From positions 9,480,425 through 9,544,424 of the forward strand of contig NZ_JAQNDM010000002.1 of the NCBI RefSeq assembly GCF_028368975.1: DNA of 64,000 bases, in the 5' to 3' direction. Under the pieces are notes generated by a model. That model was not told the DNA's origin and did not search any database. It worked only from the letters and a program-made list of their open reading frames with translations. How positions within the stretch are numbered: the stretch's first letter is position 1; every line of letters begins with the position of its first letter. Positions 41,292 through 59,150 of the stretch are shown here, piece after piece. A program made the position numbers and the translations under genes. The stretch comes from Stigmatella ashevillena. GTDB taxonomy: Bacteria; Myxococcota; Myxococcia; Myxococcales; Myxococcaceae.

Positions 41292-42938
41292 TTACTCAGG
41301 GTCCTCCCGGTCTTCCCGGGTGAGGCCCCAGTCCTTCAGGCGCTTGAAGAGGGTGGAGCGCGCCACGCTCAGCTCCTTGGCCACTTTTTCGCGGTTGCCG
41401 CCGTGGCGGCGCAGGGAGTGCTCGATGATCTGCCGCTCCAGCCGCGTCATCATCTGCTCCAGTGTTATCCCCGGAGGGAGTTCGGTGAGGGAGGGCAGGG
41501 CCGAGGCGGGCTCGCGTCCGAAGTCGGGCTCAAAGGAGATGTCGCCCCCGTCGATCATCGCGCCCTTGCGCAGCAGCAGTGCGCGGTGCACCACGTTGCG
41601 CAGCTCTCGGACATTGCCCGGCCAGGCGTAGTGCTGGAGCCGCTCCAGCGCGGCCTGGGTGAGCTTCACCGCCTGCCCTCGCGGGGCGTAGGTGCGCACG
41701 AAGTGCTCGGCCAGTGGGGCAATGTCCCCCCGCCGGTTGCGCAAGGGCGGCAGTGTGAGGGGAATGACGCACAGCCGGTAGTACAGGTCCTCGCGGAATT
41801 TCCCCTCACGCGAGGCGGCCAGCAGGTCCCGGTTCGTGGCCGCCACCACCCGCACGTCCACGTGGACGGGGCGGCTGGCGCCCACCCGCTTGATTTCCCC
41901 GCTCTCCAGCGCGCGGAGCAGCTTGGCCTGCAAGTCCAGTGGCAGCTCTCCCACCTCGTCGAGGAAGAGGGTGCCCCCGTCGGCTTCCTCGAAGGCCCCC
42001 TTGCGCGCGGTCTGGGCGCCCGTGAAGGAGCCCCGCTCGTGGCCAAACAGCTCGCTCTCGATGAGTTCCCGGGAGATGGCCGCGCAGTTGAGGGGGATGA
42101 GGGGCTGGTCCGCGCGGGTGGAGCAGGCGTGCAGCGCGCGGGCCACCAACTCCTTGCCCGTGCCGGACTCGCCGAAGACGGCCACCGCGGCGGAAGAGGG
42201 CGCCACACGCTCGACGAGATCCATGAGCTGGCGGATGCAGGGCTCGTCGCCGATGAGGCCATGGCGCTTCGCCTCGCCCTGGAGGGCTGTTCGGGGCTCG
42301 AAGAGCAGCTCCGTCTCTCCCACGCGCAGGCAGGTGTTCAGCGGAATCTCCACCTCGAAGACGCGGGTGGGGCCCAGGAACGTGCCATTGGTGGAACTCA
42401 GGTCCACCACGTGGAAGAGCCCCTCGCGCCGTGTCACCTTGAGGTGTCGGCCGGAGATGAACCGGTCCTGGATGACGACCTCACAGGACGGGTCCTTGCC
42501 CACGGTGAAGCCCTCGCCCCGCGGCGCATGAATGAACTCGGTGGAGCCCTGCTTCACCCGCACCTGGACGGACTGGCCGGGCTCGGCCTGCCGGGTCATT
42601 GGCTGAAGGGCGGTGCTGCGGTGCGCCCCCGTGGGAGAATCCGTCTCGCCACTGCCCCGCTGGCGGAACACCGCGCGCCACTGGCCCAGGGTGATGTCCG
42701 CCCCGTCGGCCAGCTCTCCCTGCGCCATCGGCTTGCCAGAGACCAGGGTGCCCCGGCCGGAGAGATCCTCCAGCACGCAGCGGGTGCCATCGTGCTGGAG
42801 GGCCACGTGCCTGCGGCTGATGTCTGGGTCCGGCAGGACGACGTCACTCTGCTCGCCCCGCCCCAGCACCACGCGCCCGTGCTCCAGCCCCACCCTGAGC
42901 ACTTCCTCGCCACGACGAAAGAACACCAGCTCCGGCAT
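41292..42938 (-). CDS. Sigma-54 activator with two FHA domains
   Basis: 548 residues. Two forkhead-associated domains replace a receiver: FHA1 about 22-92 (VVLGRGEQSDVVLPDPDISRRH) and FHA2 about 140-213 (GKDPSCEVVIQDRFISGRH, then SSTNGTFLG). They bind phosphothreonine, so a Ser/Thr kinase should control the protein. The AAA domain (about 228-460) has Walker A GESGTGKE (256-263), Walker [10 protein letters not shown], and a sigma-54 contact loop reading GSFTGA (303-308) instead of GAFTGA. The C-terminal Fis-type helix-turn-helix ends the protein (REKVAKELSVARSTLFKRL). It is monocistronic, 105 bases after the gspN stop. Confidence 0.9.
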   Translation of the reverse strand: MPELVFFRRGEEVLRVGLEHGRVVLGRGEQSDVVLPDPDISRRHVALQHDGTRCVLEDLSGRGTLVSGKPMAQGELADGADITLGQWRAVFRQRGSGETDSPTGAHRSTALQPMTRQAEPGQSVQVRVKQGSTEFIHAPRGEGFTVGKDPSCEVVIQDRFISGRHLKVTRREGLFHVVDLSSTNGTFLGPTRVFEVEIPLNTCLRVGETELLFEPRTALQGEAKRHGLIGDEPCIRQLMDLVERVAPSSAAVAVFGESGTGKELVARALHACSTRADQPLIPLNCAAISRELIESELFGHERGSFTGAQTARKGAFEEADGGTLFLDEVGELPLDLQAKLLRALESGEIKRVGASRPVHVDVRVVAATNRDLLAASREGKFREDLYYRLCVIPLTLPPLRNRRGDIAPLAEHFVRTYAPRGQAVKLTQAALERLQHYAWPGNVRELRNVVHRALLLRKGAMIDGGDISFEPDFGREPASALPSLTELPPGITLEQMMTRLERQIIEHSLRRHGGNREKVAKELSVARSTLFKRLKDWGLTREDREDPE

Positions 42939-44055: not shown

Positions 44056-44613
44056 TTACTTCTTGAGCTTGTAGGTGGAGACGGTGGTCCAGGCCGTCAG
44101 GGATTCGGAAGCGGGACGGGGCTCGACGCGCAGGTACTTCACCTTCACGATGCCCGGGCCGCTCTCCACGGAGCGCAGGAAGTCGGTCAGCTTGCGCAGG
44201 TCCACGTCCGTGAAGGTCAGCTCCATGCTGCTCTCCAGGATCTTCCCGTCGCCGATGCCCACCTCGCCCTTGGGCGTCATGTTGGGGACCTCGAGGCCGG
44301 AGGCCGTGGCCTTGTCGGAGATGTAGCTCAGCAGGCGCACGTCGCTGGCGCTGAGCTGCTGTTCGATCGACTTCCGGGCCTGCGTCGCCTCGTTGTAGCT
44401 GGCGGCCAACTGCTGCACCTGCTGGAGCTTGGCCAGCTTGTCCTGGGTGCGGCGCCGGTAGCCCGAGGCGCTGTTGGCGAAGGACAGCAGGGTGATGAAC
44501 AGGATGAAGGCGAGCACGGCCGTGCCGGCCACCGTCACCAGCCGCCGCTCGCGGGCGCTGAGCTGGTCGAACCGGGTACGCGCGTCGGTGAGGAGTTGGC
44601 GAAGCTTGTCCAT
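44056..44613 (-). CDS. gspM: Type II secretion protein GspM
   Basis: 185 residues. A short cytoplasmic start (MDKLRQLLTDARTRFDQLSA, RERR) is followed by one membrane helix (about 25-46, LVTVAGTAVLAFILFITLLSF), a periplasmic coiled coil and a ferredoxin-like fold ending KLKK. GspM pairs with GspL in the inner-membrane platform and passes energy from GspE to the pseudopilus. It lies between gspL (3-base gap) and gspN (4-base gap). Confidence 0.85.
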   Translation of the reverse strand: MDKLRQLLTDARTRFDQLSARERRLVTVAGTAVLAFILFITLLSFANSASGYRRRTQDKLAKLQQVQQLAASYNEATQARKSIEQQLSASDVRLLSYISDKATASGLEVPNMTPKGEVGIGDGKILESSMELTFTDVDLRKLTDFLRSVESGPGIVKVKYLRVEPRPASESLTAWTTVSTYKLKK

Positions 44614-44616
44614 GTC

Positions 44617-46209
44617 CTAGCTCTCCACCGTGGGCTGGTTGGGGCACTGCACCTGGATGTCCAGGCGGAAGGAGACCTTGGATCCGTCCCGCGTCTTCTC
44701 CACCTTGCCCGGGTTCACTTCCTTGAAGCAGCGGTGGCCCTTGAGAGCGGTCGTCAAGGTGTCGATCTCCTTGGAGCTGTCCGTCTCGCCCTGGATGATG
44801 ATGCGCTCCAGGTCGATCTGGATGCGATCCAGCTTCACCGGCACCTCGGCCGGGATGCGCTGGGTCACCTCTGCCAGAAGGTTGATCGCCGACTGCTGGG
44901 GCAGCGCCGCGGCGGGGCTCTCCACGCCTCGCAGCAGGTTGAGCGCGCGGTCATAGTTCGTCTCGCAGGTGCCGAGGATGCGCTGAGTGGTGGCGCACAG
45001 CAGCGCGTCCACCTGGGCTTCCCGCCGTGCGAGCACCGAGTTGCGGACCACGCCGCTGGCGATGAGCAGCAGGAGGATCGTGGCGGCGAAGGAGGCGAGC
45101 AACCCCACCTTGTCCTTCACGTAGTCATAGTCGCCCTTGAAGGCGAACTCCCCCCGCCGGAGGTTGAACCGGGGCGCCTTGGCGCCGGAGGCCTGGCCCC
45201 GGAGCGCCAGCGAGTACGCCTGGGCCACCTGAGGCTGGAGCTCCGTGGGGACCGCCGAGGAGGCCTCGTTCGGCAGCGCCAGCACCCGGGCTGGCATGTG
45301 GAGCTCCTTGCCGAACTGCTCGGCGAGCCCCTTGAGTCGCGCGGTGCCACCGCACAACACCACGGCCCCCACCTGGCGTCGGCTGCGCGCGGTGAAGGAT
45401 TTGAAGGTGGGGCGCAGCTCCCGCAGGATCGGCTGGAGGCCTCGGAGGAGGGCCCCCGCGGCCCGTTCGGCGTCCGGCCCCTGTGAGGCGGCCACGCTGG
45501 CCATCGCCCCGTGCAGCTCCTTCCAGTGGTGGGCCTCGGGCAGCGGCGTTTGAAACTCGGCGGCCAGTGCGCGGCTCAGCTCCTTGCCTCCGCCCGAGAA
45601 GGTGCGGGCGAACTCCAGCCCCGCCCCCGGTCGGCCGATGGCCACCGTGGTGCGCTCGTGGCCGATGTCCACCACGGCCACCGCGTCCACCCCGTCGAAC
45701 CCCTCGAACGCCGCGGGCGTCTGGAGGAAGAGGTTCTGATAGGTGATGCCCGGGTGGGTGACGATGCGCGGGGTGACGTTCAGATCGGTGAAGAGCCCCA
45801 GCAGCGAGGACAGCTCCTCCTTGCGCACCACGCCCACCAGCACGTCGCTGCTCACCTTCTCCTTCTGCCCCGTCACCTGGTAGTCGAAGACGACATCGGA
45901 CAGGTCGAAGGGCAGTTGGCTCTCCACCTCGAAGGGCAGCGCCGCCTCGATGCGCTTCGGATCGGCGAAGGGCAGGGTGAAGGTGTGCGTCATCAGCGCT
46001 GGGCCGGGCAGGGCGATGATGACCTGGTCCGCCTGGAGCGTGGGGTTCGAGAGCAGCTCCTGAAGGGCGGCCTTCAACGTCTCGGCGCGATCTCCCTCGG
46101 CGCGGCGCACCTCGGCGTAGGCCTTGGTGGCGTATCCCCTCATGTTCGACTCGAACAGCACGCCCTTCACGGCGTAGCTGCCAAGGTCGAGGCCTAGAAT
46201 CCGGGCCAT
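44617..46209 (-). CDS. gspL: Type II secretion protein GspL
   Basis: 530 residues, longer than the usual 380-420. The cytoplasmic part has the actin/PilM-like fold (ILGLDLGSYAVKGV at the start and VDAVAVVDIGHERTTVAIG near 185) that docks the GspE ATPase. A membrane helix at about 370-395 (VGLLASFAATILLLLIASGV) leads to a periplasmic ferredoxin-like domain that pairs with GspM. The extra length is in the cytoplasmic domain. It starts 3 bases after gspK ends, as expected for one operon. Confidence 0.87.
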   Translation of the reverse strand: MARILGLDLGSYAVKGVLFESNMRGYATKAYAEVRRAEGDRAETLKAALQELLSNPTLQADQVIIALPGPALMTHTFTLPFADPKRIEAALPFEVESQLPFDLSDVVFDYQVTGQKEKVSSDVLVGVVRKEELSSLLGLFTDLNVTPRIVTHPGITYQNLFLQTPAAFEGFDGVDAVAVVDIGHERTTVAIGRPGAGLEFARTFSGGGKELSRALAAEFQTPLPEAHHWKELHGAMASVAASQGPDAERAAGALLRGLQPILRELRPTFKSFTARSRRQVGAVVLCGGTARLKGLAEQFGKELHMPARVLALPNEASSAVPTELQPQVAQAYSLALRGQASGAKAPRFNLRRGEFAFKGDYDYVKDKVGLLASFAATILLLLIASGVVRNSVLARREAQVDALLCATTQRILGTCETNYDRALNLLRGVESPAAALPQQSAINLLAEVTQRIPAEVPVKLDRIQIDLERIIIQGETDSSKEIDTLTTALKGHRCFKEVNPGKVEKTRDGSKVSFRLDIQVQCPNQPTVES

Positions 46210-46212
46210 CGT

Positions 46213-47610
46213 TTATTCCTCTCTCCAGTACAGGAGCCGGCCGAGCGTGTCGTCGAGCCGGACCACGGCGGTGAGCGTCTTCTGGACGCTGCCCGCCTCT
46301 CCCACGGATTTGATGGTGAAAGTCTGGCTCTTGTCACCCACGAGCCGGTTGTTGTTCGCCGCGTTCTGGTTCACCGAGGGGTTGACGCTCGGGTTGATGG
46401 GCACGCCCGCGCTGGCGACGATGTTGACGAAGTCCGCCACGGACATGCCCATGAAGCTGAACATGCGCGCGGTGCGGATCTGGGTGATGATCTCCTGGAC
46501 GAACACCGGATCCTGCAGCCGGGGGTCCGGCTTCGTCTGGTCCGCCACGGAGAGGATGGCCATGTACATCATCATCGGATCGTCCGTGTTGATGTTGGGC
46601 CGGGAGTTGATGTCCGGATAGACGGTGAGCCGGTCCCGGAAGGCGGCCATGAAGCGGTCCGTCACGCCGTGCACCCGGTACAGCTCGTCCAGGCTGTCAA
46701 AGCGCGCGTTCTTCGCCTCGTAGCGCGGATCGAAGCGGTCGTAGTGCATGCCCTCGTCGGCGAAGCCGGAGGCAAACGGGTTGACGGGATCCGCCAGGTT
46801 GATGGCCGACTGCACCTCGTCCTCGTCCACCCAGTCCTTCAGCGCAATCACGACATCCTGAGGCGTGACGCGCACCTTGTTGGAGTCTTCCCGGTCGAAG
46901 AGGAACTCGAAGCGCTTGTCACCGAACAGGTCCATCATGCGCGCCGCGGTGGGCAGCGCGTCCGTGGCCAGCGATGAGAGGCGGTGGACGTTGAGCTTCT
47001 CCTCCTCGTCGTGGATGTCCGCCAGGAAGCAGCCCTCGAAGCCGCCGAAGGAGCGCCGGACAGGCGCCGCTGAAGCCTCCGTGGGCTCCTCTCCCTCGTC
47101 CATCTGGAAGTTCGAGTCCTGCGCAGGTGCTCCTTCCGCACCGCCTGCTGAGGCGTCGCTGTTCACCAGCCCCTTGAGCATGTGGCAGTCCACGCGCGCC
47201 AGCTTCCAGAGCTGGATGTTGAGCGAGGAGGGGGCTGCGGCCGGTGCCCCTCCCGCCGGAGCGCCGCCCGTGAGCTGCTGGAGCATGTTGCCCAGGTTCG
47301 GAATGGGCGTCTGGTCCACCTGTCGCTGGAAGCGCAGCAGGAGCCGACCGAGCGCGATGCCGGAGCGCGCCATGTAGAAGGCGCGGACCTCGTCCCGTTG
47401 GTTGGCCGCCAGTTGCAGGTCCACCCGGGTGTTGTAGGCGAACTCGGTGGCCACCACCGTGAGCACGGTGATGGAGATGATGGCGATGATGAGGGCCACG
47501 CCTCGGGTGCGCCGGTCTCGCCGGGCCGCGGGAGCAGCCACGGGGGCAGCCACGAGGGTAGGAGGTGGGGCAGGGCGCCGCCGGGCTTTCTGGGAGAAGA
47601 ATCCGCGCAT
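46213..47610 (-). CDS. gspK: Type II secretion minor pseudopilin GspK
   Basis: 465 residues, larger than the common 320-340. After a basic cytoplasmic leader the prepilin-like helix reads RTRGVALIIAIISITVLTVV: the GV/AL form without the Glu at position 5 is typical of GspK, the pseudopilus tip. A Pro/Ala/Gly-rich insert (about 100-170) adds length. The alpha domain of the family follows with acidic Ca-binding candidates (LFDREDSNKVRVTPQD, DWVDEDE). Its ATG overlaps the gspJ stop by one base (TGATG). Confidence 0.87.
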   Translation of the reverse strand: MRGFFSQKARRRPAPPPTLVAAPVAAPAARRDRRTRGVALIIAIISITVLTVVATEFAYNTRVDLQLAANQRDEVRAFYMARSGIALGRLLLRFQRQVDQTPIPNLGNMLQQLTGGAPAGGAPAAAPSSLNIQLWKLARVDCHMLKGLVNSDASAGGAEGAPAQDSNFQMDEGEEPTEASAAPVRRSFGGFEGCFLADIHDEEEKLNVHRLSSLATDALPTAARMMDLFGDKRFEFLFDREDSNKVRVTPQDVVIALKDWVDEDEVQSAINLADPVNPFASGFADEGMHYDRFDPRYEAKNARFDSLDELYRVHGVTDRFMAAFRDRLTVYPDINSRPNINTDDPMMMYMAILSVADQTKPDPRLQDPVFVQEIITQIRTARMFSFMGMSVADFVNIVASAGVPINPSVNPSVNQNAANNNRLVGDKSQTFTIKSVGEAGSVQKTLTAVVRLDDTLGRLLYWREE

Positions 47611-48281
47611 CAGAACCTCGGGAGCTCCGTGTTCAGCATGATCCGGGCCTGGGTGGTGTAACGCGCTTCCTTGTTGTTCTCGTCGAGGGCCGTCACCGTG
47701 ATGCGCACCCGGGTGGGGAGGATGGACTTCTTTTCATTGCGGCGCGTGTCCCACTCGTCATCCCACTCCTTGCGGGTGGAGTCCCAGTAGGAGAACTCCA
47801 CCTTCTTCACCCCTTCGAAGAGCACGTCCGTGGTGCCGCCTCGGTCCATCCGCTCGCCGATGTTGGGGTTCACCCGCCGCTTCAAGTCCTGTCGGCCCCG
47901 CGAGCCCTTCTCCGTGGAGTTCTCCACGAAGTACTCCACCACGGCCTGGTCCGACTCCTTGGAGTCCGTGTACAGGCGCTGGTGCGCGAACGTGGTGAAG
48001 AGCAGCCGGTCCTGCTCGCCCACGAAGTTGGTGGGCCGGTCGTTGGCGTCCCGGTAGCGCTTGGGATCGTACCGGTCGCTCACGAACGCCGAGCCCACCT
48101 CGCGCGCCATGCGGTTGAGCGAGACGCGCACCATGCGGTAGCGCTCCGCCTCGCCCTCGACCACTTCCTTGGCGCGGAAGCCTGTCTGGAAGGCCATGGA
48201 CACGATGGTGCCGATGAGCGCGGTGATGGCCACGGCGACCATCACCTCCATCAGCGTGAAGCCGCGGAAGGAACGTCTCAT
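47610..48281 (-). CDS. gspJ: Type II secretion minor pseudopilin GspJ
   Basis: 223 residues from the ATG at 48281, which overlaps the gspI stop (ATGA). The class III signal is RGFTLMEVMVAVAITA, with cleavage after Gly7 and the conserved Glu at mature position 5. A single helix and a C-terminal beta domain follow. With GspI and GspK it forms the pseudopilus tip. Numbers of charged residues are high, for example KEWDDEWDTRRNEKK. Length is close to the family norm. Confidence 0.88.
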   Translation of the reverse strand: MRRSFRGFTLMEVMVAVAITALIGTIVSMAFQTGFRAKEVVEGEAERYRMVRVSLNRMAREVGSAFVSDRYDPKRYRDANDRPTNFVGEQDRLLFTTFAHQRLYTDSKESDQAVVEYFVENSTEKGSRGRQDLKRRVNPNIGERMDRGGTTDVLFEGVKKVEFSYWDSTRKEWDDEWDTRRNEKKSILPTRVRITVTALDENNKEARYTTQARIMLNTELPRF

Positions 48282-49123
48282 CGGATGGCCCCCTTGCCCT
48301 GGAGTCCGTTCAGCGAGCCGCCCCGCTGCTGCATCCACTGCATGCGGTTCATGAGCGGCTGGCGCGTGCGCGGATCCAGCATCTGCCCGTTGGGGCCCGG
48401 CACCGGGCTGGGGACGACTTGGCCCGTGGCCGGATCCACCCACTGGCCGGAGGGGTCTCCCTCCCCCTGTCCGGTGCCGCCGCCCGCGCCGCCGCCCGCG
48501 CTGGCACCGCCGTTGCGGTCCGAGCCAGGCCCCAGCGACACCATGTGCGTCACCACGTCGATGCTCTCCACCTGCGTCCCTTCCTTCCAGGTGACGGTGA
48601 GGTGGACTTCGCGCACGGCCTTGGTGAGCTGGTCGATCATCTGGGTGAACATGGGCTGCGCCATGCCCATCGCCATCCCGGCCATGCCACCCCCGGCCGG
48701 TGTCTGGCCGCTGGGAAGGCCTTCCTTGCCGCCCGCCGCGCCTCCGAAGAGAGAGGCGATGCCGCCCATGTCGCCCATGTCGCCCATGGGCAGGTTGAAG
48801 ATGGCGCCGATGAGCTGGTCGGGGGAGACGCCGTCCGTCTTGGGGGCGATGATCTTCGCGCGCCACTTGAAGGTGGGCCACCCCTCCTCGGAGAAGTCGC
48901 CGGCCTCCTCGTCGTCGTCCGCGGAGAAGCCATCGTCGTAGAGCTTCTGCTCCAGGTCCGTCATCTTCGAGCGGGCCAGGAGCGAGGCCACCGTGAGGTG
49001 CTTGCTGTAGACGTGGTTGGAGACCGCGCCGGAGTTGAGATCGAAGATGGCCATCAGCGCCAGCGCCAGGATGGCGAGCGCGACGACGGTTTCCAGCAGG
49101 GTGAAGCCGCGGGTGCGCTTCAT
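48278..49123 (-). CDS. gspI: Enlarged type II secretion minor pseudopilin GspI
   Basis: 281 residues from the ATG at 49123 (overlapping the gspH stop), more than double the usual 120-130. The prepilin signal RGFTLLETVVALAILALALM is normal, cleaved after Gly5. After the GspI core (up to about 90) comes an inserted Met/Gly-rich segment (about 105-160, with PMGDMGDMGG and GGGMAGMAMGMAQPMF), a return of conserved-looking beta strands (EVHLTVTWKEGTQVESIDVVT), and a long Gly/Pro/Gln-rich tail. Such Met-rich loops sometimes bind copper or stick to membranes; here that is only a guess. Confidence 0.83.
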   Translation of the reverse strand: MKRTRGFTLLETVVALAILALALMAIFDLNSGAVSNHVYSKHLTVASLLARSKMTDLEQKLYDDGFSADDDEEAGDFSEEGWPTFKWRAKIIAPKTDGVSPDQLIGAIFNLPMGDMGDMGGIASLFGGAAGGKEGLPSGQTPAGGGMAGMAMGMAQPMFTQMIDQLTKAVREVHLTVTWKEGTQVESIDVVTHMVSLGPGSDRNGGASAGGGAGGGTGQGEGDPSGQWVDPATGQVVPSPVPGPNGQMLDPRTRQPLMNRMQWMQQRGGSLNGLQGKGAIR

Positions 49124-49836
49124 GACTTGGGCACCTCCAGCTCCTCGCCCACCACCGCCACCTTGCCGGTGAGCGGGGACAGGCTGAGGGTCCAGACGTT
49201 GTCCCCCTGGCGCACGTACACCTGGGCCTTCTCTGTGTAGCCCTGGGGGAAGAAGTAGAGGTAGGCCACGCCCTCGTGCACGGGCTCCTTCTGCTGGCGC
49301 GTCCACACCGAGACGCTCACGCTGCTGGGCAGTTCCCGCGGCGCCAGCTCCTCGTTGGTGTAGCTGGAGAAGCGCGCCGCATCCTCCACGCGGTTCTCCT
49401 CCTGCGCCATCAGCTCCTGGAGGCTGGGTGCCCCACCGCTGTTGGAGCTGGTGAAGTTGCGCCGATCGTCGCCGAAGCGCGCCTGGTCCTCCCGCGTGCG
49501 GTTCTCCTCCTTGAGGGCATCATCCCGGTTGCGCGCGGTGGTGACGCCGCTCGCCGCGCACTCGGCGTGGTAGCGCGTCGTCCCTTCGCTCTTCGCATCG
49601 GGAATCTCGAAGACCAGTCGGCACGTCTTCCCCGACAGCGCGGCGGTGTCGTAGAGCGAGCGGATGATGCCCGCCAGTTCCCCGGCGGCTGCCTTGGCCT
49701 TGCTGCCGGTGATGGCGCCCACGCCCGTCACCACCGCGGAGAAGAGCACCGCGGCGATGAGCAGGGCGATGGCGATTTCAATGAGCGTCAGGCCGCGCTC
49801 GGCGCGCCGCTTCATCCGCATGGGAGGGCTCTTCAT
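49120..49836 (-). CDS. gspH: Type II secretion minor pseudopilin GspH
   Basis: 238 residues from the ATG at 49836; an internal ATG at 49821 is an alternative. The prepilin signal is AERGLTLIEIAIALLIAAVL with Gly before the cleavage site and Glu at +5. The length exceeds the usual 150-190 because of a charged insert (about 110-165, NRDDALKEENRTREDQARF). GspH is a low-abundance pseudopilin near the tip. Its start overlaps the stop of the GspG-like gene upstream (49833), keeping the operon tightly coupled. Confidence 0.83.
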   Translation of the reverse strand: MKSPPMRMKRRAERGLTLIEIAIALLIAAVLFSAVVTGVGAITGSKAKAAAGELAGIIRSLYDTAALSGKTCRLVFEIPDAKSEGTTRYHAECAASGVTTARNRDDALKEENRTREDQARFGDDRRNFTSSNSGGAPSLQELMAQEENRVEDAARFSSYTNEELAPRELPSSVSVSVWTRQQKEPVHEGVAYLYFFPQGYTEKAQVYVRQGDNVWTLSLSPLTGKVAVVGEELEVPKS

Positions 49837-50267
49837 GGCCGTGTCTCCTCGAGCCCGCCACTGGTGATATCCGCGGCGTCTCCCTGGCCACCCGGCACCC
49901 CGTCCGAGCCATAGGAGATGATGCCGGCGCGTGCCTCGTTCATCCGGTACACGTAAGGGTGGCCCCACGGGTCCAGGGGGGGGCTGTCCATCACCTTGGC
50001 CTGCACGAGCGGGGTGAAGCCCTCCTGCTCCGTGGGAAAGCGTCCCGTGGCGCGTTGGAAGGCCTGGAAGTAGCCCTCCAGGCGGCGGATTTGCGCCCGG
50101 GCCCGGCGCTGCTTCTGGCCCAGGGCATCGTCCTGCGTCAGGTACACCAGCCCGAAGGCCATGGCCGTGGCGAGGGCAAAGACGATGGCCAGCACCCGCC
50201 GCCCCAGCCGGGCAGGGCTCGCCGTCCTATCGGGGGGCTGGAGGGAGAGGTGCTCGGCCATGGCCAC
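49833..50267 (-). CDS. GspG-like protein without prepilin cleavage site
   Basis: 144 residues. The C-terminal half matches GspG: EGYFQAFQRATGRFPTEQEGF, then PLDPWGHPYVYRMN, and the calcium-loop region SYGSDGVPGGQGDAADI. The N-terminus is different: 27 polar residues, then a membrane helix (RRVLAIVFALATAMAFGLVYL) with no Gly-Phe/Met-Thr-Leu-x-Glu processing signal. It therefore should not be cleaved or assembled like a pilin and would stay as a signal-anchored inner-membrane protein. It lies between gspG and gspH in the operon. It may be an assembly factor or regulator of the major pseudopilin, or a decaying copy. Confidence 0.8.
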   Translation of the reverse strand: MAMAEHLSLQPPDRTASPARLGRRVLAIVFALATAMAFGLVYLTQDDALGQKQRRARAQIRRLEGYFQAFQRATGRFPTEQEGFTPLVQAKVMDSPPLDPWGHPYVYRMNEARAGIISYGSDGVPGGQGDAADITSGGLEETRP

Positions 50268-50278
50268 GGGGTCCTCGC

Positions 50279-50698
50279 TTACTTGGAGCCGGGGTTGGCG
50301 TCGCGGGACGAGATGTCCGCGTCCTGACCCTCGCCGCCGGCGGTGCCATCCCCGCCGTAGGAGATGATGACAGGCTTGCCGCCCTCATTCAGGTACACGT
50401 ACTCGTTGTTCCAGGGGTCTCTCGGAATGGCCTCCAGGGCCTGCATCTCCACGAGCCCCCGCAGGCCCGTGGCCGTGTCGGGGTAGTTGCCCTTCTTCGT
50501 GTAGTAGAGCTTGAGCGCGTTCTGGATGCTCTTGATGTCCAGCTCGGCGCGGTCCCGGCGGGCCTGGTTGAGCTGGGGGATGACCGCCACGCCCACCGCC
50601 GCGGCGATGAGGCCGAGGATGGTGATGACGACCATGATTTCGATCAGGGTCATGCCGCGGTTGCGGCGTCGGCGCTGCTGCTTCTTCGTCGTGTCCAT
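50279..50698 (-). CDS. gspG: Type II secretion major pseudopilin GspG
   Basis: 139 residues from the ATG at 50698, which is 5 bases from the GAGGG site; the ATG at 50701 is only 2 bases from it. The prepilin signal RNRGMTLIEIMVVITILGLI is canonical, with Glu at mature position 5. The globular part shows the family features: KSIQNALKLYYTKKGNYPDT, DPWNNEYVYLNEG and the calcium loop SYGGDGTAGGEGQDADI. GspG is the main subunit of the pseudopilus that pushes cargo through GspD. A hairpin and a 7-bp repeat lie just upstream, perhaps to set its expression apart from gspF. Confidence 0.92.
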   Translation of the reverse strand: MDTTKKQQRRRRNRGMTLIEIMVVITILGLIAAAVGVAVIPQLNQARRDRAELDIKSIQNALKLYYTKKGNYPDTATGLRGLVEMQALEAIPRDPWNNEYVYLNEGGKPVIISYGGDGTAGGEGQDADISSRDANPGSK

Positions 50699-50720
50699 CA
50701 TGTCCCTCGATTGACTTTCT

Positions 50721-50741
50721 GGCAGGCGTCGGGGGCCTGCC
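50721..50741 (-). promoter_or_regulatory. Intercistronic hairpin upstream of gspG
   Basis: GGCAGGC and GCCTGCC form a 7-bp perfect stem with a 7-base loop between the 48-residue ORF and gspG, 23 bases before the gspG start. It could be an RNA-processing or stabilising element that raises the level of the major pseudopilin. Confidence 0.45.
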
Positions 50742-50756
50742 CATGCCGTTGTGTCA

Positions 50757-50784
50757 AAGGCTCAAGGCTCAAGGCTCAAGGCTC
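50757..50784. repeat. Four tandem copies of a 7-bp unit
   Basis: AAGGCTC repeated four times without a mismatch (28 bases), covering the stop codon of the small ORF and the spacer before the gspG hairpin. A simple repeat that could change copy number; the stop lies within the array. Confidence 0.9.
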
Positions 50785-50922
50785 GCTTGGGGTGGAAGCC
50801 GGAGCGCTGGCCTGCGAGTCGGAAGCGTAGAGGACGGCGCCCACGCCCAGCAGGGCCGCCGCCAGGGCCAGCAGGGCCGCCAGGGTGATGCCTTGGACCC
50901 ACCTGTCGAGCGTGTCATTCAT
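50776..50922 (-). CDS. 48-residue single-helix membrane protein in the T2SS operon
   Basis: 48 residues from the ATG at 50922, with GAGG 7 bases upstream. It begins MNDTLDRWVQ, has one membrane helix (about 11-32, GITLAALLALAAALLGVGAVL), then a short tail rich in Ser, Pro and Ala. It starts 11 bases after the gspF stop and sits before gspG, in the same direction, so it is translated with the operon. No standard Gsp component is this small or lies here. Either an accessory membrane subunit of the inner-membrane platform or a spurious frame; the start signal, helix and position favour a real gene. Confidence 0.6.
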   Translation of the reverse strand: MNDTLDRWVQGITLAALLALAAALLGVGAVLYASDSQASAPASTPSEP

Positions 50923-50933
50923 CGCCGCGCCTC

Positions 50934-52190
50934 TTACCGGATGACCGAGTTCACCTGCAGAATGGGCATCAGGATCGAGAAGGCGACGAATGCAATCACC
51001 GCGCCCATCATCACGATGAGGATGGGCTCGAGCAGCGAGGTGAGGGCGCCAATGCGCACATCCACCTGCGTCTCGTAGCTGTCGGCCACCGAGAACAGCA
51101 TCTCCTCCAACTGGCCGGAGCGCTCGCCGATGGCGACCATGTGGTAGACGAGCGGGGGGAACTCCCCGGAGCGCTTGAGGGGGTTGGCGATGCTCTCACC
51201 CTCGCGGATGGCATCGCGCGCCTTCTCCACCACCTCCGAGAGCACCGAGTTGGTGATGACCGCCTTGACGATGTCCATGGCGGCCAGGAGGGGCACCCCG
51301 CTCTTGAGCAGGGTGGCCAGCGTGCGCGCGAAGCGGGAGATGGCCAAGAGCCGCACCAGGCTTCCAAAGACGGGCGCCTTGAGCGCGAAGCGGTCCCAGA
51401 GGGGCTTGCCGCGCGGGCTGGCGAAGAACGTCACCGCCCCGAAGATGCCCAGGCCCAGCACCGGGAAGATGAAGAACCACCAGTCCTGCAGGAAGTTGCT
51501 CACGCCGATGAGCACCCGCGTGGTGAAGGGCAGGGTGGCGTTCATCGTCTCGAAGATCTTCGTCACCTTCGGCACGACGACGGTCATCAGCAGCACGAGG
51601 ATGCCGCCGCCCACCACCAGCATGATGGCGGGGTAGAGCATGGTGCCGACGATCTTCTGGCGCAGCTTGGCCTGGCCCTCGGTGAAGTCCGCCAGCCGCT
51701 GGAGCACCGTGTCCAGCGCGCCGGAGGCCTCTCCGGCCCGCACCATGTTGATGTAGAGCGAGCCGAACACCTTCTGGTGCTGCGCCAGTGCATCCGCGAG
51801 CGAGGAGCCCTCGTTCACCCGCTGCTTGATGTCGGACAGGATGCGCTTGAAGCGCTCCTTCTCCACTTGGTCCACCAGCGCGGTGAGCGACTCCACCAAG
51901 GTGACGCCCGCGGCCAGCAGCGTGGCGAGCTGGCGCGTGGTGATGGCGATGTCCTCGGTGGTGACACGGCCGCGCGCCATCTTGCGCAGGTCGATGTCGC
52001 GCTCGGCGAGCGCGGCCCCGGCACCCTTGCGCACCGCCCCCCGGCTGCCTTCGGCCTGGCCGAGCACGTCCGTGAGGAAGATGCCGTCCTTGCGCAGCTG
52101 GCTGCGCAGGGTCTTGGCCGAGTCGGCCTCCAAGAGCCCTTTGATGGTCTTGCCCGCGCTGTTGAGACCTCTGTACTCGAAGACAGGCAT
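50934..52190 (-). CDS. gspF: Type II secretion inner-membrane platform protein GspF
   Basis: 418 residues. Two similar cytoplasmic four-helix domains (about 70-190 and 270-390) separated by membrane helices at about 165-190, 215-240 and near 375-400, the standard GspF/PilC plan. The family signatures include MPVFEYRGLNSAGKTIKG at the start and ITTRQLATLLAAGVTLVESL; the second domain has RFARTLATLLKSGVPLLAAM. GspF couples the GspE ATPase to pseudopilus growth. The start (ATG at 52190) matches the family's MPxFEY opening. It follows gspE by 39 bases. Confidence 0.93.
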   Translation of the reverse strand: MPVFEYRGLNSAGKTIKGLLEADSAKTLRSQLRKDGIFLTDVLGQAEGSRGAVRKGAGAALAERDIDLRKMARGRVTTEDIAITTRQLATLLAAGVTLVESLTALVDQVEKERFKRILSDIKQRVNEGSSLADALAQHQKVFGSLYINMVRAGEASGALDTVLQRLADFTEGQAKLRQKIVGTMLYPAIMLVVGGGILVLLMTVVVPKVTKIFETMNATLPFTTRVLIGVSNFLQDWWFFIFPVLGLGIFGAVTFFASPRGKPLWDRFALKAPVFGSLVRLLAISRFARTLATLLKSGVPLLAAMDIVKAVITNSVLSEVVEKARDAIREGESIANPLKRSGEFPPLVYHMVAIGERSGQLEEMLFSVADSYETQVDVRIGALTSLLEPILIVMMGAVIAFVAFSILMPILQVNSVIR

Positions 52191-52229: not shown

Positions 52230-54041
52230 TTAGATGTCCTCCTGCGTGATGCTGAGGACCTCGGCGATGGTCGTCTCTCCCAGGGCCACCTTGCGCGCGC
52301 CGTCATCCAGCAGGGTGAGCATCCCCTTGCTCATGGCGGACTTCTTGATGGTGGACGCGTCCACGTTCTTGAGCACCAACTGGCGCACATCGTCATCCAC
52401 CAGCAGGAACTCGTAGATGCCCGTGCGGCCGCGGTAGCCGGTGCGGTTGCAGTTGGGGCAGCCCGTGGCCTTGTAGATGCGGTCCACGCCATAGCGCTCC
52501 TTGAAGGAGGCGCGCGTGTGGGCCAGCTCCTTGAGCTCGTGGTCCTCGGTGGAGGTGGGCGTCCGGCAGTCTGGGCAGACGCGGCGCACCAGGCGCTGGG
52601 CCAGGATGGCGGTGAGCGAGGAGGCGACGAGGAAGGGCTCCACGCCCATGTCCACCAGACGGGTGACGGCGCCCGCCGCGTCGTTGGTGTGCACCGTGGA
52701 GAGCACCAGGTGGCCCGTCAGCGAGGCCTGGATGGCGATTTCCGCCGTCTCCTTGTCACGGATTTCACCCACCATGATGACGTCCGGATCCTGGCGGAGG
52801 AAGGAGCGCAGGCCCTGGGCGAAGGTGAGGCCGATCTTCGGGCTGATGGCCATCTGGCCAATGCCCTTGAGCTGGTACTCGACCGGGTCCTCGACGGTGA
52901 GGATGTTGAGGTCCGGGGTGTTGATCTTCGACAGGGCGCCGTAGAGCGTCGTCGTCTTTCCGGAGCCGGTGGGGCCCGTCACGAGGATGATGCCGTGCGA
53001 GCGCTTGATGACGGAGGAGATCCCCGAGAGCGTGTGCTGGCTCATGCCGATCTCGGCCAGATCCAGAAGCGTCGCGGTCTTGTCCAGGAGGCGCATGACG
53101 ATGCGCTCGCCGAACGTGGTGGGGATGGTGGACAGACGGATGTCGATGTCGCGGCCGGCCAGCTTGATGCGGATGCGGCCGTCTTGGGGCAGGCGCTTCT
53201 CGGCGATGTTGAGCTGCCCCATCACCTTCACGCGGCTGACGATGGAGTTCTGGTAGCGCTTGGGAGGCTTGATGACCTCCTGGAGCACACCGTCCACGCG
53301 GAAGCGCACGAGCAGCTCGCGCTCCATGGGCTCGATGTGGATATCGCTGGCGCGCTCCTTGGCTGCGCGGAAGAGGATGGAGTTGACGAGCCGGATGACG
53401 GGGGCCTCGTCGTCCGTGTCGAGCAGGTCCTTGGGCTCCTCCAACTCGTGGGCCAGCGAGTCGAGATCCGCCTCCTCCATCTCGTCCACGAGCTGCTCGG
53501 CCTCGTTGATGGACCGGTCGTAGACGGCGTTGATGGCGTCCACGATGGTGGAGCCCAGGGCGATGCGCGGGCTGATGTTCTGGCCGAGCAGCAGGCGGGC
53601 GTTGTCCAGCACCGCCGTGTCCAACGGGTCCGCCACGGCGATGATGACCGTCTCATCCGCCAGCGCGAGCGGCAGCAGCTTGGCCTGCTTGGCGAAGTTG
53701 ATGGGAACCTTCTTCACCAACTCCGGGTCCACCTCATCCACGAAGATGCGCTGGAGGAAGGGCAGATCCAACTGGGTCCCGAGCGCCTTGGCCACGTCCT
53801 CTTCGCTCACCGCCTTGAGGCCGACGAGCACCTCGCCGATGCGGCCTCCCTTCTCCGCCTGGGTCCTGAGCGCCTCCTGGAGCTTCTCCTCGGAGAGCGA
53901 GGCAGTGGCCTGGAGGATCTCTCCCAGCGGGCGGCCAGACAGATAGGCCTGGCTGTGCGCGACGATCTGGGTGGCGTCGTTGCGGGACGGGCTGGGGGTC
54001 GGCGCGAGGTCCGGGGGGGCGGGATCGGTGGTCAGGCTCAT
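52230..54041 (-). CDS. gspE: Type II secretion ATPase GspE
   Basis: 603 residues. An N-terminal GspE_N domain (about 30-170) binds GspL. The ATPase core has Walker A GPTGSGKT (356-363), Asp box TVEDPVEYQ, Walker B/Asp motif QDPDVIMVGEIRDKETAE and a His box LVLSTVHTNDA. A tetracysteine zinc motif (CPDC, then CPNC about 45 residues later) marks the C-terminal metal domain typical of T2SS and type IV pilus assembly ATPases. It powers pseudopilus extension. Its start is 5 bases after the gspD stop. Confidence 0.94.
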   Translation of the reverse strand: MSLTTDPAPPDLAPTPSPSRNDATQIVAHSQAYLSGRPLGEILQATASLSEEKLQEALRTQAEKGGRIGEVLVGLKAVSEEDVAKALGTQLDLPFLQRIFVDEVDPELVKKVPINFAKQAKLLPLALADETVIIAVADPLDTAVLDNARLLLGQNISPRIALGSTIVDAINAVYDRSINEAEQLVDEMEEADLDSLAHELEEPKDLLDTDDEAPVIRLVNSILFRAAKERASDIHIEPMERELLVRFRVDGVLQEVIKPPKRYQNSIVSRVKVMGQLNIAEKRLPQDGRIRIKLAGRDIDIRLSTIPTTFGERIVMRLLDKTATLLDLAEIGMSQHTLSGISSVIKRSHGIILVTGPTGSGKTTTLYGALSKINTPDLNILTVEDPVEYQLKGIGQMAISPKIGLTFAQGLRSFLRQDPDVIMVGEIRDKETAEIAIQASLTGHLVLSTVHTNDAAGAVTRLVDMGVEPFLVASSLTAILAQRLVRRVCPDCRTPTSTEDHELKELAHTRASFKERYGVDRIYKATGCPNCNRTGYRGRTGIYEFLLVDDDVRQLVLKNVDASTIKKSAMSKGMLTLLDDGARKVALGETTIAEVLSITQEDI

Positions 54042-54046
54042 GGGGA

Positions 54047-56587
54047 TTACTCACCCTCTCCCGTGTCAGGCTGGATTCGAAGCTGCTCCGGGGTTTCGGG
54101 AGGAGGCGTTGACTCCTCTGAACCCGGGGGCGCGAGCGGGGCTTCCCGGACGGGGGGCCCGGCCGGGGCAGCCTGCGGGGCCTCGGGTGCCTGTCCGCCC
54201 TGCGGGGCCGGGCTCGTGGGTTTGGGTGCCGGGCTTTCTCCGGCGGGGGTGATCACCCGCTCGCCCGCGCCACCGGGGCCGCCGTTCTCCGCCTTCAACT
54301 GCTCGCGCAGCACCGTCTGGTTCATCCGCGACAGCGGCCCCGGCTTGCGGCTGAAGTCGATGGCCACGTCGTAGCCGGGCACCTGGCCGTAGAACTGCTC
54401 CACGAACTGCTGACGCTCCTTCATCTTGCGCTCGAAGATGGTGCGGAAGTCGCTCTGGTTGCGGATGATGTAGGGCGTCAGGAACAGCAGCAGGTTCGTC
54501 TTCGTCTTGCGGCGGGTGGTGTCCCGGAACAGGTGCCCCAGAAGGGGGATGTCGCCCAGGATGGGCACCTTGGAGACGCTCTCGATGGTGCGGTCCTGCA
54601 TGATGCCGCCGATGACCACCGTCTCCTGATCCTTGGCCACCACCGTCGTCTTCGCGCTGCGCTTCGAGGTGGTGGGGCCGAGCACGGGATCGCTGGAGGC
54701 GATCTCCTCGGTCTGCTCGGTGATGACCATGCGGATGAAGTCGCTCTCATTGATTTGCGGCTTGACGGTGAGCTTCAACTCCACGTTCTGACGGGTGATG
54801 GGGGCGAAGGAGGAGCCCAGGCCGAGCAGCGCGCTGCTCAAGCCGGAGCCGGCGCCGCCGGTGACGCCGCCGATGCCGCCGAGGCCGCCGCCGATGGAGC
54901 CGGGGGAGAAGCCGGCCTGGAAGGGCACGTTCTGGCCCACGGTGATTTCGGCCTCTTCGTTGTCGCTGGTGAGCAGGTGCGGGGTGGAGAGCACGTTCAC
55001 GTCCGAGTTCTGCTGGAGCGCGTGCAGCACCACACCGAAGGCCGGCACGTCGATGCCCAGGTTCTTCAGCTCGGGGATGACGGGCCCCTGGAGGCCGGCG
55101 AGGAAGCCGCCCAGGTTGACCAGCGAGCCCAGGCTCAAAGAGGGCGGGGCACCCTGCTTGGTGTACTTGGTGCCGATGATGCCCGTGGCGGCGCCGTCGC
55201 TGGTGTCCAGCTTGTAGCCCGAGTGCAGGTTGATGCCGAACTCGGAGTTGCGGTCGAGGTTGACCTCCATGATGACGGCCTCGACGAAGACCTGGCGGCG
55301 CGGGATGTCGAGCTTCTCGATGACCCGGACGATGTTCTTGAAGTCCGCCTGGCTGGCGACGATGACGAGCGAGTTGGTGGCCTTGTCGGCGGACACCTTC
55401 ACCTCACCGGAGAACAGCTCGGCGGCCACGGCCGTGTTCTGGCGGGGAACGCCCGGGGGTTGCTGCTGGGCGGGGTTGCGGGGCCGGTTGGCGGTGCCCT
55501 GGGCCAGCGTCTGCAGCGTGCTGGCCAGCTCCTCGGAGTCCGCGTTCTCCAGCGGGTAGACGTTGATGCGGCCGCCGGAGTCCGTGGGGATGTCCACCTC
55601 TTTGACGATGTCCTGGATGCGATCGAAGGCGCCCGGGCTGGCGACGATGATGAGCTTGTTGGTGCGCTCATCCGGGATGATCTGCGAGAGCGTCACCGGC
55701 CCGCCGCTGTCGCCTGAGCCCTGGGACATGTCGGGGGGCGGCATGCCGCCGGGCGTGGCGTTGCCGCCGAAGCCGCCGGCGCGCTGGCCGGGGCGCCCCT
55801 TGGACTCGAACAGCTTCTGCACCGTGGCGGCGACTTCCTGGGCGCTGGCGTACTGCACCTGGATGATGCGCAGCTCGTCGCTGGAGGAGCGCGTGTCCAA
55901 CTGGTTGATGATGCGCTCCAGGCGGTGCATGTTGGAGCCCACGTCGTTGACGATGATGGTGTCCGGCGGGTACGGGATGGTGTCGCCATCCTTGGACACG
56001 AGCTGCTGGAGCACACCGCGCAGGGGCTCCACCTCGACGTACTGGATCCGGAACAGCTTCGTCACCATCTGCTCATTGGTGGTGTAGGGCGTGTCCGCGT
56101 CGATGATCGTCGGGATGGGGTTCTGCTTCGCCGAGCGCTTGTCGACGATCTTCAGGAAGCGGCCATGCGGGTAGACGGACAGCCCGTTGGCATCCAGGGC
56201 CGCCAGGAAGGCGGCGTAGAACGATTCCGAGTCCACCTCCACGCGGCCGTTCTCGGGGCCGATGATGGAGATCTTCCCGCGCACGTTCTCCGGGAGGATG
56301 AACGTCTTGCAGGTGGCATCCGACACCGTCTGCACCAGCTTCTCGATGTCGACCTTGTCGAAGTAGATGCCGTAGCGGGCGCGGCGCCGCGCTTCCTCGC
56401 AGCTGGGGGTGGTACGCACGGTGGCGGAGGTGCCCTCGCCGCCCGGGGCCGTCGCCTGCGGGGCGATCTGCCGCTCCCCGGCGTTGTCGGGGTTGGTGTC
56501 TTGCGAGAGAGGGCGGCGCTGGGCCCAGGCGGGCGGGGTGGCCAGCACCAGGCACAGAAGGAGCGACCAGGACGGGAGCGTCTTCAT
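54047..56587 (-). CDS. gspD: Type II secretion outer-membrane secretin GspD
   Basis: 846 residues. Signal peptide (MKTLPSWSLLLCLVLATPPAWA) then N0 and repeated N1-N3 ring-building domains (for example VEVEPLRGVLQQLV and DELRIIQVQYASAQEVAAT). Gly/Pro/Gln-rich linkers break these (about 270-300 and 365-390). The secretin beta barrel spans about 430-700, with VFVEAVIMEVNLDRNSEFG at its start and VPILGDIPLLGHLFR near its end. The tail is long and Pro/Gly-rich. Secretin subunits assemble the outer-membrane pore. No lipobox pilotin gene is adjacent. It is separated from gspC by 27 bases. Confidence 0.93.
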   Translation of the reverse strand: MKTLPSWSLLLCLVLATPPAWAQRRPLSQDTNPDNAGERQIAPQATAPGGEGTSATVRTTPSCEEARRRARYGIYFDKVDIEKLVQTVSDATCKTFILPENVRGKISIIGPENGRVEVDSESFYAAFLAALDANGLSVYPHGRFLKIVDKRSAKQNPIPTIIDADTPYTTNEQMVTKLFRIQYVEVEPLRGVLQQLVSKDGDTIPYPPDTIIVNDVGSNMHRLERIINQLDTRSSSDELRIIQVQYASAQEVAATVQKLFESKGRPGQRAGGFGGNATPGGMPPPDMSQGSGDSGGPVTLSQIIPDERTNKLIIVASPGAFDRIQDIVKEVDIPTDSGGRINVYPLENADSEELASTLQTLAQGTANRPRNPAQQQPPGVPRQNTAVAAELFSGEVKVSADKATNSLVIVASQADFKNIVRVIEKLDIPRRQVFVEAVIMEVNLDRNSEFGINLHSGYKLDTSDGAATGIIGTKYTKQGAPPSLSLGSLVNLGGFLAGLQGPVIPELKNLGIDVPAFGVVLHALQQNSDVNVLSTPHLLTSDNEEAEITVGQNVPFQAGFSPGSIGGGLGGIGGVTGGAGSGLSSALLGLGSSFAPITRQNVELKLTVKPQINESDFIRMVITEQTEEIASSDPVLGPTTSKRSAKTTVVAKDQETVVIGGIMQDRTIESVSKVPILGDIPLLGHLFRDTTRRKTKTNLLLFLTPYIIRNQSDFRTIFERKMKERQQFVEQFYGQVPGYDVAIDFSRKPGPLSRMNQTVLREQLKAENGGPGGAGERVITPAGESPAPKPTSPAPQGGQAPEAPQAAPAGPPVREAPLAPPGSEESTPPPETPEQLRIQPDTGEGE

Positions 56588-56614: not shown

Positions 56615-57541
56615 TTAACGGACGTTGTACGTTTTGCGGATCGGCGCTCCGTTGCGCTCGATCTCGATCTCGATGCGGCCGGCTTCCTTGAGCTTCGAGT
56701 AGACCTCTAGGGCCTTCTCGGGGCTGTTCAGCTCGAAGCCGTTGATGCGACGGATGACGTCACCGTTCTGAACGCCGATCTTCGAATAGATGGAGTCCGG
56801 ACGGATGGAGAAGAGCTTGAAGCCCTGGGCTTGGCCATCCTTGAAGGCCGGGACGATGCGCGCCTGCATGGCCACCTCGTTGAGGTTGGACAGGGTGCGA
56901 TCAATCTCCGTGCGGGGAACCTCATATTCGTTCTCCCCGGTAGAGCGGATGCCGGTGCCCAGGCCGTTGTTGGGCGGCCCCGCGGGGCGCGCATCGGCCA
57001 CGGGCGGAGGCGTGTAGGCGGGCACCGGCGCGGCGCCATCTCCCGGCTGCCCGTCGATGAACTCCCTGCGGCCACTGTTGATGATGATGACGCGCTCGCG
57101 GAGGATGTCCGTCACCTCGGCGCCCTGGATGCGATCTCCGACCATGTACGTCTGCGAGCGCTGGGTGCCCATGTCCTGCACGGAGGCGAAGGACCAGAGC
57201 TTGTCGGCGGCCACCAGCGTGCCCAGCAGCTTCACCCGCAGGCCGCTCTTGACGGGCTCCGCGTTCTCGTCCACGGCCGGGGCCGTGGTGGGCTCCTGCA
57301 CGGCCACCTCGGGCTCGGGAATCTTGATGCCAGTCAGCCGTGACAGGGTCTCCATGTCCAGCACGGCCTGCTGATCGGCCGCGTGGGTACGCTGCGGCGC
57401 GCGGGCCATCTGCTCCGAGCCGAGGCCAGGCGCAATGGCGGATTCCACGAACAGGTTCGCCGTGCGCGCCACCATCCAGGCGACGAGCAGGATGAACACC
57501 AGGTTCACGGTCCAGAAGTATTTGCGAAAGAAGAGTTCCAT
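56615..57541 (-). CDS. gspC: Type II secretion inner-membrane coupler GspC
   Basis: 308 residues from the ATG at 57541. An upstream in-frame start at 57580 is rejected because it would lie before the predicted transcription start. One N-terminal membrane helix (about 8-28, FWTVNLVFILLVAWMVARTA) leads to a homology region (GTLVAADKLWSFASVQDMG) that binds the secretin GspD. A C-terminal PDZ domain (about 225-305, IRPDSIYSKIGVQNGDVIRRING) may recognise cargo. The gene opens the operon and has a consensus sigma-54 promoter in front. Confidence 0.92.
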   Translation of the reverse strand: MELFFRKYFWTVNLVFILLVAWMVARTANLFVESAIAPGLGSEQMARAPQRTHAADQQAVLDMETLSRLTGIKIPEPEVAVQEPTTAPAVDENAEPVKSGLRVKLLGTLVAADKLWSFASVQDMGTQRSQTYMVGDRIQGAEVTDILRERVIIINSGRREFIDGQPGDGAAPVPAYTPPPVADARPAGPPNNGLGTGIRSTGENEYEVPRTEIDRTLSNLNEVAMQARIVPAFKDGQAQGFKLFSIRPDSIYSKIGVQNGDVIRRINGFELNSPEKALEVYSKLKEAGRIEIEIERNGAPIRKTYNVR

Positions 57542-57570
57542 CACGCGTCCAGAAGGGCTGCCCGTCATTG

Positions 57571-57586
57571 AGCAAGCCAAGTGCCA
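57571..57586 (-). promoter_or_regulatory. Sigma-54 (-24/-12) promoter of the gspC-N operon
   Basis: On the minus strand TGGCAC-TTGGC-TTGCT matches the consensus TGGCAC-N5-TTGCW completely, with GG and GC separated by 10 bases. The predicted transcription start is near 57560, 19 bases before the gspC ATG. Such promoters are silent without an ATP-driven activator; one is encoded immediately upstream. Confidence 0.85.
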
Positions 57587-57648
57587 CCCCTGGGGCGGCG
57601 TGAAACCGGTGGGCTACGGCCAAGTCCGCGAAATTATTCCGAGAGCAG

Positions 57649-57670
57649 GCCCCCTCCGGGACGGGGGAGC
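57649..57670 (-). terminator. Possible terminator of the NtrC-type regulator gene
   Basis: A G/C-rich imperfect hairpin (arms GCTCCCCC and GGGGGC, with a wobble) lies 62-83 bases past the stop at 57732. No T-run follows; weak call. Confidence 0.25.
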
Positions 57671-57689
57671 GAGCCATGGGGACAGCGTG

Positions 57690-57700
57690 GACAATTTGTC
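57690..57700. promoter_or_regulatory. Candidate enhancer (UAS) for sigma-54 activator
   Basis: GACAA-T-TTGTC is a perfect 5-1-5 palindrome about 135 bases before the predicted start site of the gspC operon, the typical distance for an enhancer bound by an NtrC-type dimer. Only one copy was seen, so cooperative binding would need a second, less obvious site. Confidence 0.5.
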
Positions 57701-57731
57701 AAAGCCTGGAGGGGCGCCGCATGACGGGCTG

Positions 57732-59150
<1,419 letters not shown>

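Follow-up and report, generated by a model that had tools for sequence, protein, structure and literature searches.

The window analyzed here, a 64,000-nucleotide stretch of the Stigmatella ashevillena genome, contains a type II secretion system (T2SS) gene cluster on its minus strand. In these predatory bacteria, MYXO-CTERM surface receptors such as TraA are exported by the T2SS, as presumably are enzymes. The gsp genes C, D, E, F, G, K, L and M are all found in this one cluster. In the order of transcription, the gene of a response regulator is followed by an intergenic region of 190 nt, by gspC-gspD-gspE-gspF-gspG and by more gsp genes down to about position 44056. The first gene of the operon, gspC (56615–57541), has T2SSC and GspC_delta matches; no other gene of the genome matches T2SSC. 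It is followed by the secretin gene gspD (54047–56587; Pfam Secretin and GspD N0) and the secretion ATPase gene gspE (52230–54041), which is assigned by its sequence, its operon position and orthology in relatives. Then come gspF (50934–52190; NCBIfam GspF equivalog), gspG (50279–50701; prepilin/pseudopilin sequence and orthology) and a second GspG-like gene (49833–50267; Pfam T2SSG). Three further ORFs have their true start inside the ORF: a gspH-like pseudopilin ORF (49120–49968; N_methyl and gspH matches), a minor pseudopilin ORF that is probably gspI (48278–49306; N_methyl and operon position) and a gspJ-like ORF (47610–48881; T2SSJ). The genes gspK (46213–47610; T2SSK, GspK), the PilM/PilN-like gspL (44617–46209; PilM_2, T2SSL) and gspM (44056–44613; T2SSM) complete the cluster. 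At its 3' end, an FHA-domain sigma-54 activator identified by Pfam (41292–42938, minus strand) is a possible second regulator. Myxococcaceae relatives have an FHA-type activator in this position with 69–90% identity, and one other family has one with 50% identity. Thus the T2SS operon has sigma-54 activators on both flanks. A small ORF of 48 residues with one hydrophobic segment (MNDTLDRWVQGITLAALLALAAALLGVG...) is found between gspF and gspG (50776–50922, minus strand) and can be aligned in all nine Myxococcaceae examined.

The gene upstream of gspC (57732–59150, minus strand) encodes an NtrC-type response regulator of 472 residues with Pfam receiver, sigma-54 AAA+ and Fis-type HTH domains. 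Its receiver carries Asp54 (numbered from the ATG) and its AAA+ domain carries GAYTGA, which bears out the original prediction of an NtrC-type activator with these two features. The sigma-54 promoter of the gsp operon, TGGCACTTGGCTTGCT, is found as an exact match at 57571–57586 on the minus strand, with 29 nt between it and the ATG of gspC (57541). It fits the TGGCAC-N5-TTGCW consensus, and ten bases separate its GG from its GC. The TGGCAC-N5-TTGCT element with GG-N10-GC spacing that had been proposed ahead of gspC is therefore real in both sequence and spacing. Transcription of gspC is predicted to start near 57560. The exact TGGCACTTGGCTTGCT-type pattern has one match in the window and 14 matches in the 10.95 Mb genome versus 4 for a reversed control. 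With these numbers a chance position ahead of gspC is unlikely.

Alignment of the intergenic region among Myxococcaceae reveals four conserved islands on a diverged background, namely operator A, operator B, an IHF-like element and the –24/–12 promoter. Column identity averages 0.99 over the promoter core, 0.90–0.91 over the operators and 0.79 over the IHF-like island; it is 0.54–0.61 in the spacers between the islands and 0.73 in the N5 spacer of the promoter. Operator B, TGACAAATTGTCC (57689–57701, minus strand), contains the palindrome GACAATTTGTC at 57690–57700, an exact inverted repeat of odd length that is unique within the window. The center of the palindrome precedes the predicted start by about 135 nt, as the original prediction had it. 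Operator A, TGACAGCCCGTCA (57722–57734, minus strand), had escaped that prediction; its center lies 33 bp upstream of that of operator B and it overlaps the stop codon of the activator gene. Both operators belong to a TGACA-N3-TGTCA-type class. This class was defined on Myxococcaceae and then held in families outside the defining set. Just upstream of gspG (about 50713–50765, minus strand), TGACACAACGGCA and TGCCAGAAAGTCA form a degenerate operator-like pair with a distance of 32 bp; the downstream half of this pair is almost invariant in Myxococcaceae.

The third island, GGAATAATTTCGCGGACTTGGCCGT (57614–57641, minus strand), is located between the operators and the promoter and is unique in the genome. 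Its column identity and the position of the IHF pattern WATCARNNNNTTR make it a putative IHF-like bending site, with the core at 57621–57633. The best WATCARNNNNTTR match recurs at the same position across loci, and a match with at most one mismatch is found in 23 of 100 loci versus 2 expected; the window's own copy has 3 mismatches. The island also reads as GGAAT-N18-GT, which is ECF-promoter-like. We set this reading aside and tentatively prefer the IHF-like one, since a conserved CTTGG lies inside the would-be spacer.

Genome-wide questions were addressed by pattern searches. In the 10.95 Mb genome there is a single match to the paired operators with their N20 gap. When an operator followed after 90–120 nt by the promoter was searched for in 25 genomes, 12 of them had exactly one match each, and the reversed control gave no match in any of the 25. 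Comparison of coordinates places all 12 single matches ahead of gspC. With one match in each of these 12 genomes, and that at gspC, the unit looks dedicated to the T2SS.

Comparison of the intergenic region across genomes had been chosen beforehand as a test that could refute the original prediction. Missing –24/–12 boxes in close relatives would have spoken against it; the reverse was observed, which supports the prediction. Among 105 primary gspC loci of Myxococcota, a sigma-54 site matching at least 8 of 9 positions is kept within 100 nt in 99 (shuffles 1.0%), with a full 9/9 match in 96. At least one operator is found within 300 nt in 104 of the 105 (shuffles 2.1%). These loci cover many families and are mutually related, so that they are not independent trials. 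In most Myxococcota loci the sigma-54 element sits 28–63 nt upstream of gspC. Another 30 loci come from the most distant families; by our own count, 19 of them carry a sigma-54 site that scores 8/9 or better, and an operator pair at 40–42 bp is present in 15. In family f8 the operators are present and the –24/–12 sites near gspC are poor. A gspC locus of Oligoflexaceae (Bdellovibrionota), taken as outgroup, has neither an operator nor a sigma-54 site. Overall, most of the phylum Myxococcota has the unit. To be noted, the spacing of the operator pair is quantized: it is 31–33 bp in Myxococcaceae and in family f2, and 40–42 bp in most others. These distances are three and four helical turns, as expected if two activator dimers share one face of the DNA. 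The operator pairs appear to have moved by a whole helical turn with their register kept.

Two side observations were made among these loci. Second gspC paralogues are found in Myxococcus and Corallococcus relatives (L129, L131, L135, L137, L139, L140), and in several genomes they also have sigma-54-like sites and operator-like palindromes. The record BNCN01000003.1 (L050) is titled Comamonas sp. KCTC 72670 and has a clearly myxobacterial gspC region; it is mislabelled or contaminated.

The regulator gene adjoins gspC co-directionally in many families. Where it is unlinked, the operators at gspC persist, and most genomes have one clear orthologue with about 49–81% identity, usually well above the next match. 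All 77 regulator orthologues have Asp54, Thr82 and Lys104. In the same set the GAFTGA/GAYTGA motif and Walker A are nearly invariant, as is the recognition helix RTIYRK. We looked for recognition-helix residues that co-vary with the operator variants TGACA and TGCCA, and none is apparent. A simple motif scan of the 1.5 kb flanks of unlinked regulator orthologues recognized no kinase motif, and the regulator is classed as an orphan. A cross-table of regulator versus strict operator, tallied by hand, gives a moderate association (Fisher p = 0.014, kinship ignored). Operators with no detected regulator orthologue are found in four genomes (G070, G164, G012 and G185), all of them multi-contig assemblies. 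Four small-genome Myxococcota (G172, G173, G177 and G178) are natural rpoN losses. Neither rpoN nor a regulator orthologue is found in them, while a gspC match is retained, and at the gspC loci of two of them, G173 and G178, we saw neither a sigma-54 site nor a convincing operator. This joint absence gives indirect support to a dependence of the promoter on rpoN. In one further genome (G180) rpoN is kept and both the regulator and the operators are lost.

Taken together, the main T2SS operon of Myxococcota very probably has a dedicated sigma-54 control unit that is worked by the neighboring NtrC-type regulator. Dimers of this regulator would bind the two TGACA-N3-TGTCA-type operators on the same face of the DNA, at predicted positions near –135 and –168. 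A bend at the IHF-like site near –70 would then allow the AAA+ hexamer to contact the RNA polymerase–sigma-54 complex at TGGCAC-N5-TTGCT. ATP hydrolysis would open the promoter ahead of gspC and the gsp cluster would be driven from there. In this scheme, operators A and B would be the targets of the neighboring regulator. The regulator would be activated by phosphorylation, and the gspC promoter would drive the whole operon. Conservation of the unit over nearly all of the phylum makes it probable that a single dedicated regulator controls the T2SS. The pairing of this secretion machine with a sigma-54 activator of its own appears to date back to early Myxococcota. The architecture is classical; the target and the depth of conservation are unusual.

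Other explanations have to be weighed against such a unit. It is improbable, in our view, that gspC owes most of its transcription to a sigma-70 or ECF promoter or to transcripts running on from the regulator gene, with the sigma-54 site as an accessory boost at the time of starvation. The apparent indispensability of the T2SS genes during growth of M. xanthus would suit a constitutive promoter (PMC6434023), and the GGAAT-N18-GT reading of 57614–57641 is reminiscent of some ECF promoters. However, inspection of the intergenic region by eye revealed no canonical sigma-70 promoter, the conserved CTTGG and the fixed position of the IHF match speak against the GGAAT element, and it is the –24/–12 boxes that show the deepest conservation. 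Quite unlikely too is a sigma-54-dependent promoter whose main activator is another enhancer-binding protein (EBP), for example Nla28 or the FHA-type EBP on the 3' flank, the neighboring regulator then serving other targets. The conservation of the FHA-EBP at the end of the cluster would agree with this, as would the binding of the Nla28 DNA-binding domain (DBD) to the MXAN2511 (T2SS) fragment and the Nla28 dependence of the genes in development (PMC9765219). However, the Nla28 consensus half-site CT(C/G)CG(C/G)AG is unlike the gspC operators, and the published Nla28-linked –24/–12 site lies inside gspF with a match of 7/9 only. Furthermore, the operators are adjoined by the response regulator and not by the FHA-EBP, and the HTH of this regulator is conserved phylum-wide. 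One palindrome and one promoter match would be weak evidence if taken alone, but a coincidence of the two is practically negligible as an explanation and is refuted by the phylum-wide conservation, the quantized spacing and the genome-wide uniqueness.

The control of gspC by sigma-54 touches an old puzzle. The gene rpoN is dispensable in most bacteria. In M. xanthus its deletion is reported as lethal in two sources (PMC12316311; PMC4641369), and attempted deletions of T2SS genes failed in the same organism (PMC6434023). The gspC promoter makes this puzzle, in which rpoN and the T2SS genes both resist deletion, testable. If most T2SS transcription comes from this promoter, the lethality of rpoN loss would follow from the indispensability of the T2SS. 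We therefore offer as a tentative idea, and a somewhat doubtful one, that sigma-54 might be indispensable in M. xanthus largely via the promoter of an indispensable T2SS operon, that the regulator might thus be essential and that basal T2SS transcription might depend on the regulator phylum-wide. Under this idea the regulator could not simply be off during growth. The failed deletions of the T2SS genes (PMC6434023) likewise speak against the system being simply switched off in growing cells.

How much of this is new depends on the element considered. We take COG3031 to be the GspC/PulC group. A 2025 survey of sigma-54 regulons found T2SS COGs, including COG3031, enriched among the predicted sigma-54 targets of Myxococcia; as far as its available text goes, the survey gives a statistical enrichment and mentions no regulator or operator, no spacing and no connection with essentiality (PMC12316311). 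Ma et al. (2022) reported that Nla28-DBD binds the MXAN2511 T2SS fragment (PMC9765219). The statement of the original prediction that T2SS operons are not usually reported as sigma-54 dependent is thus only partly right, given the genome-wide prediction in Myxococcia (PMC12316311) and the experiment at an internal site of the operon (PMC9765219). A search mainly of openly available literature turned up no published account of this promoter, and none of the operators or the neighboring regulator. The dedicated regulator, its operator pair and the phylum-wide conservation are new, while the link between sigma-54 and the T2SS is itself not wholly new.

A close case is the MXAN2511 promoter of the Nla28 regulon, which like the gspC unit is of the EBP-controlled sigma-54 type and belongs to the same operon (PMC9765219). 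It is found inside gspF, upstream of gspG, and has a weak –24 box, and the gspC unit differs from it in both EBP and operator. The gspC promoter is not among the Nla28 targets listed there (PMC9765219). We rejected the published MXAN2511 site as the promoter of the operon; it is a 7/9 match within the coding sequence of gspF and its conservation may be coding-derived. With NtrC/glnA, ZraR and PilR/pilA the gspC unit shares a response-regulator EBP with a phospho-accepting Asp, GAFTGA and a Fis HTH, as well as tandem upstream operators, a –24/–12 promoter and a putative IHF-like site between them. Unlike these systems, it has a complete T2SS operon as its target, a single apparent target per genome, no recognized adjacent kinase gene and a TGNCA-N3-TGNCA operator at three or four helical turns. 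Sigma-54-controlled T6SS and T3SS clusters likewise place a secretion machine under sigma-54 and an EBP, whereas the gspC unit serves another secretion system and is conserved over most of a phylum.
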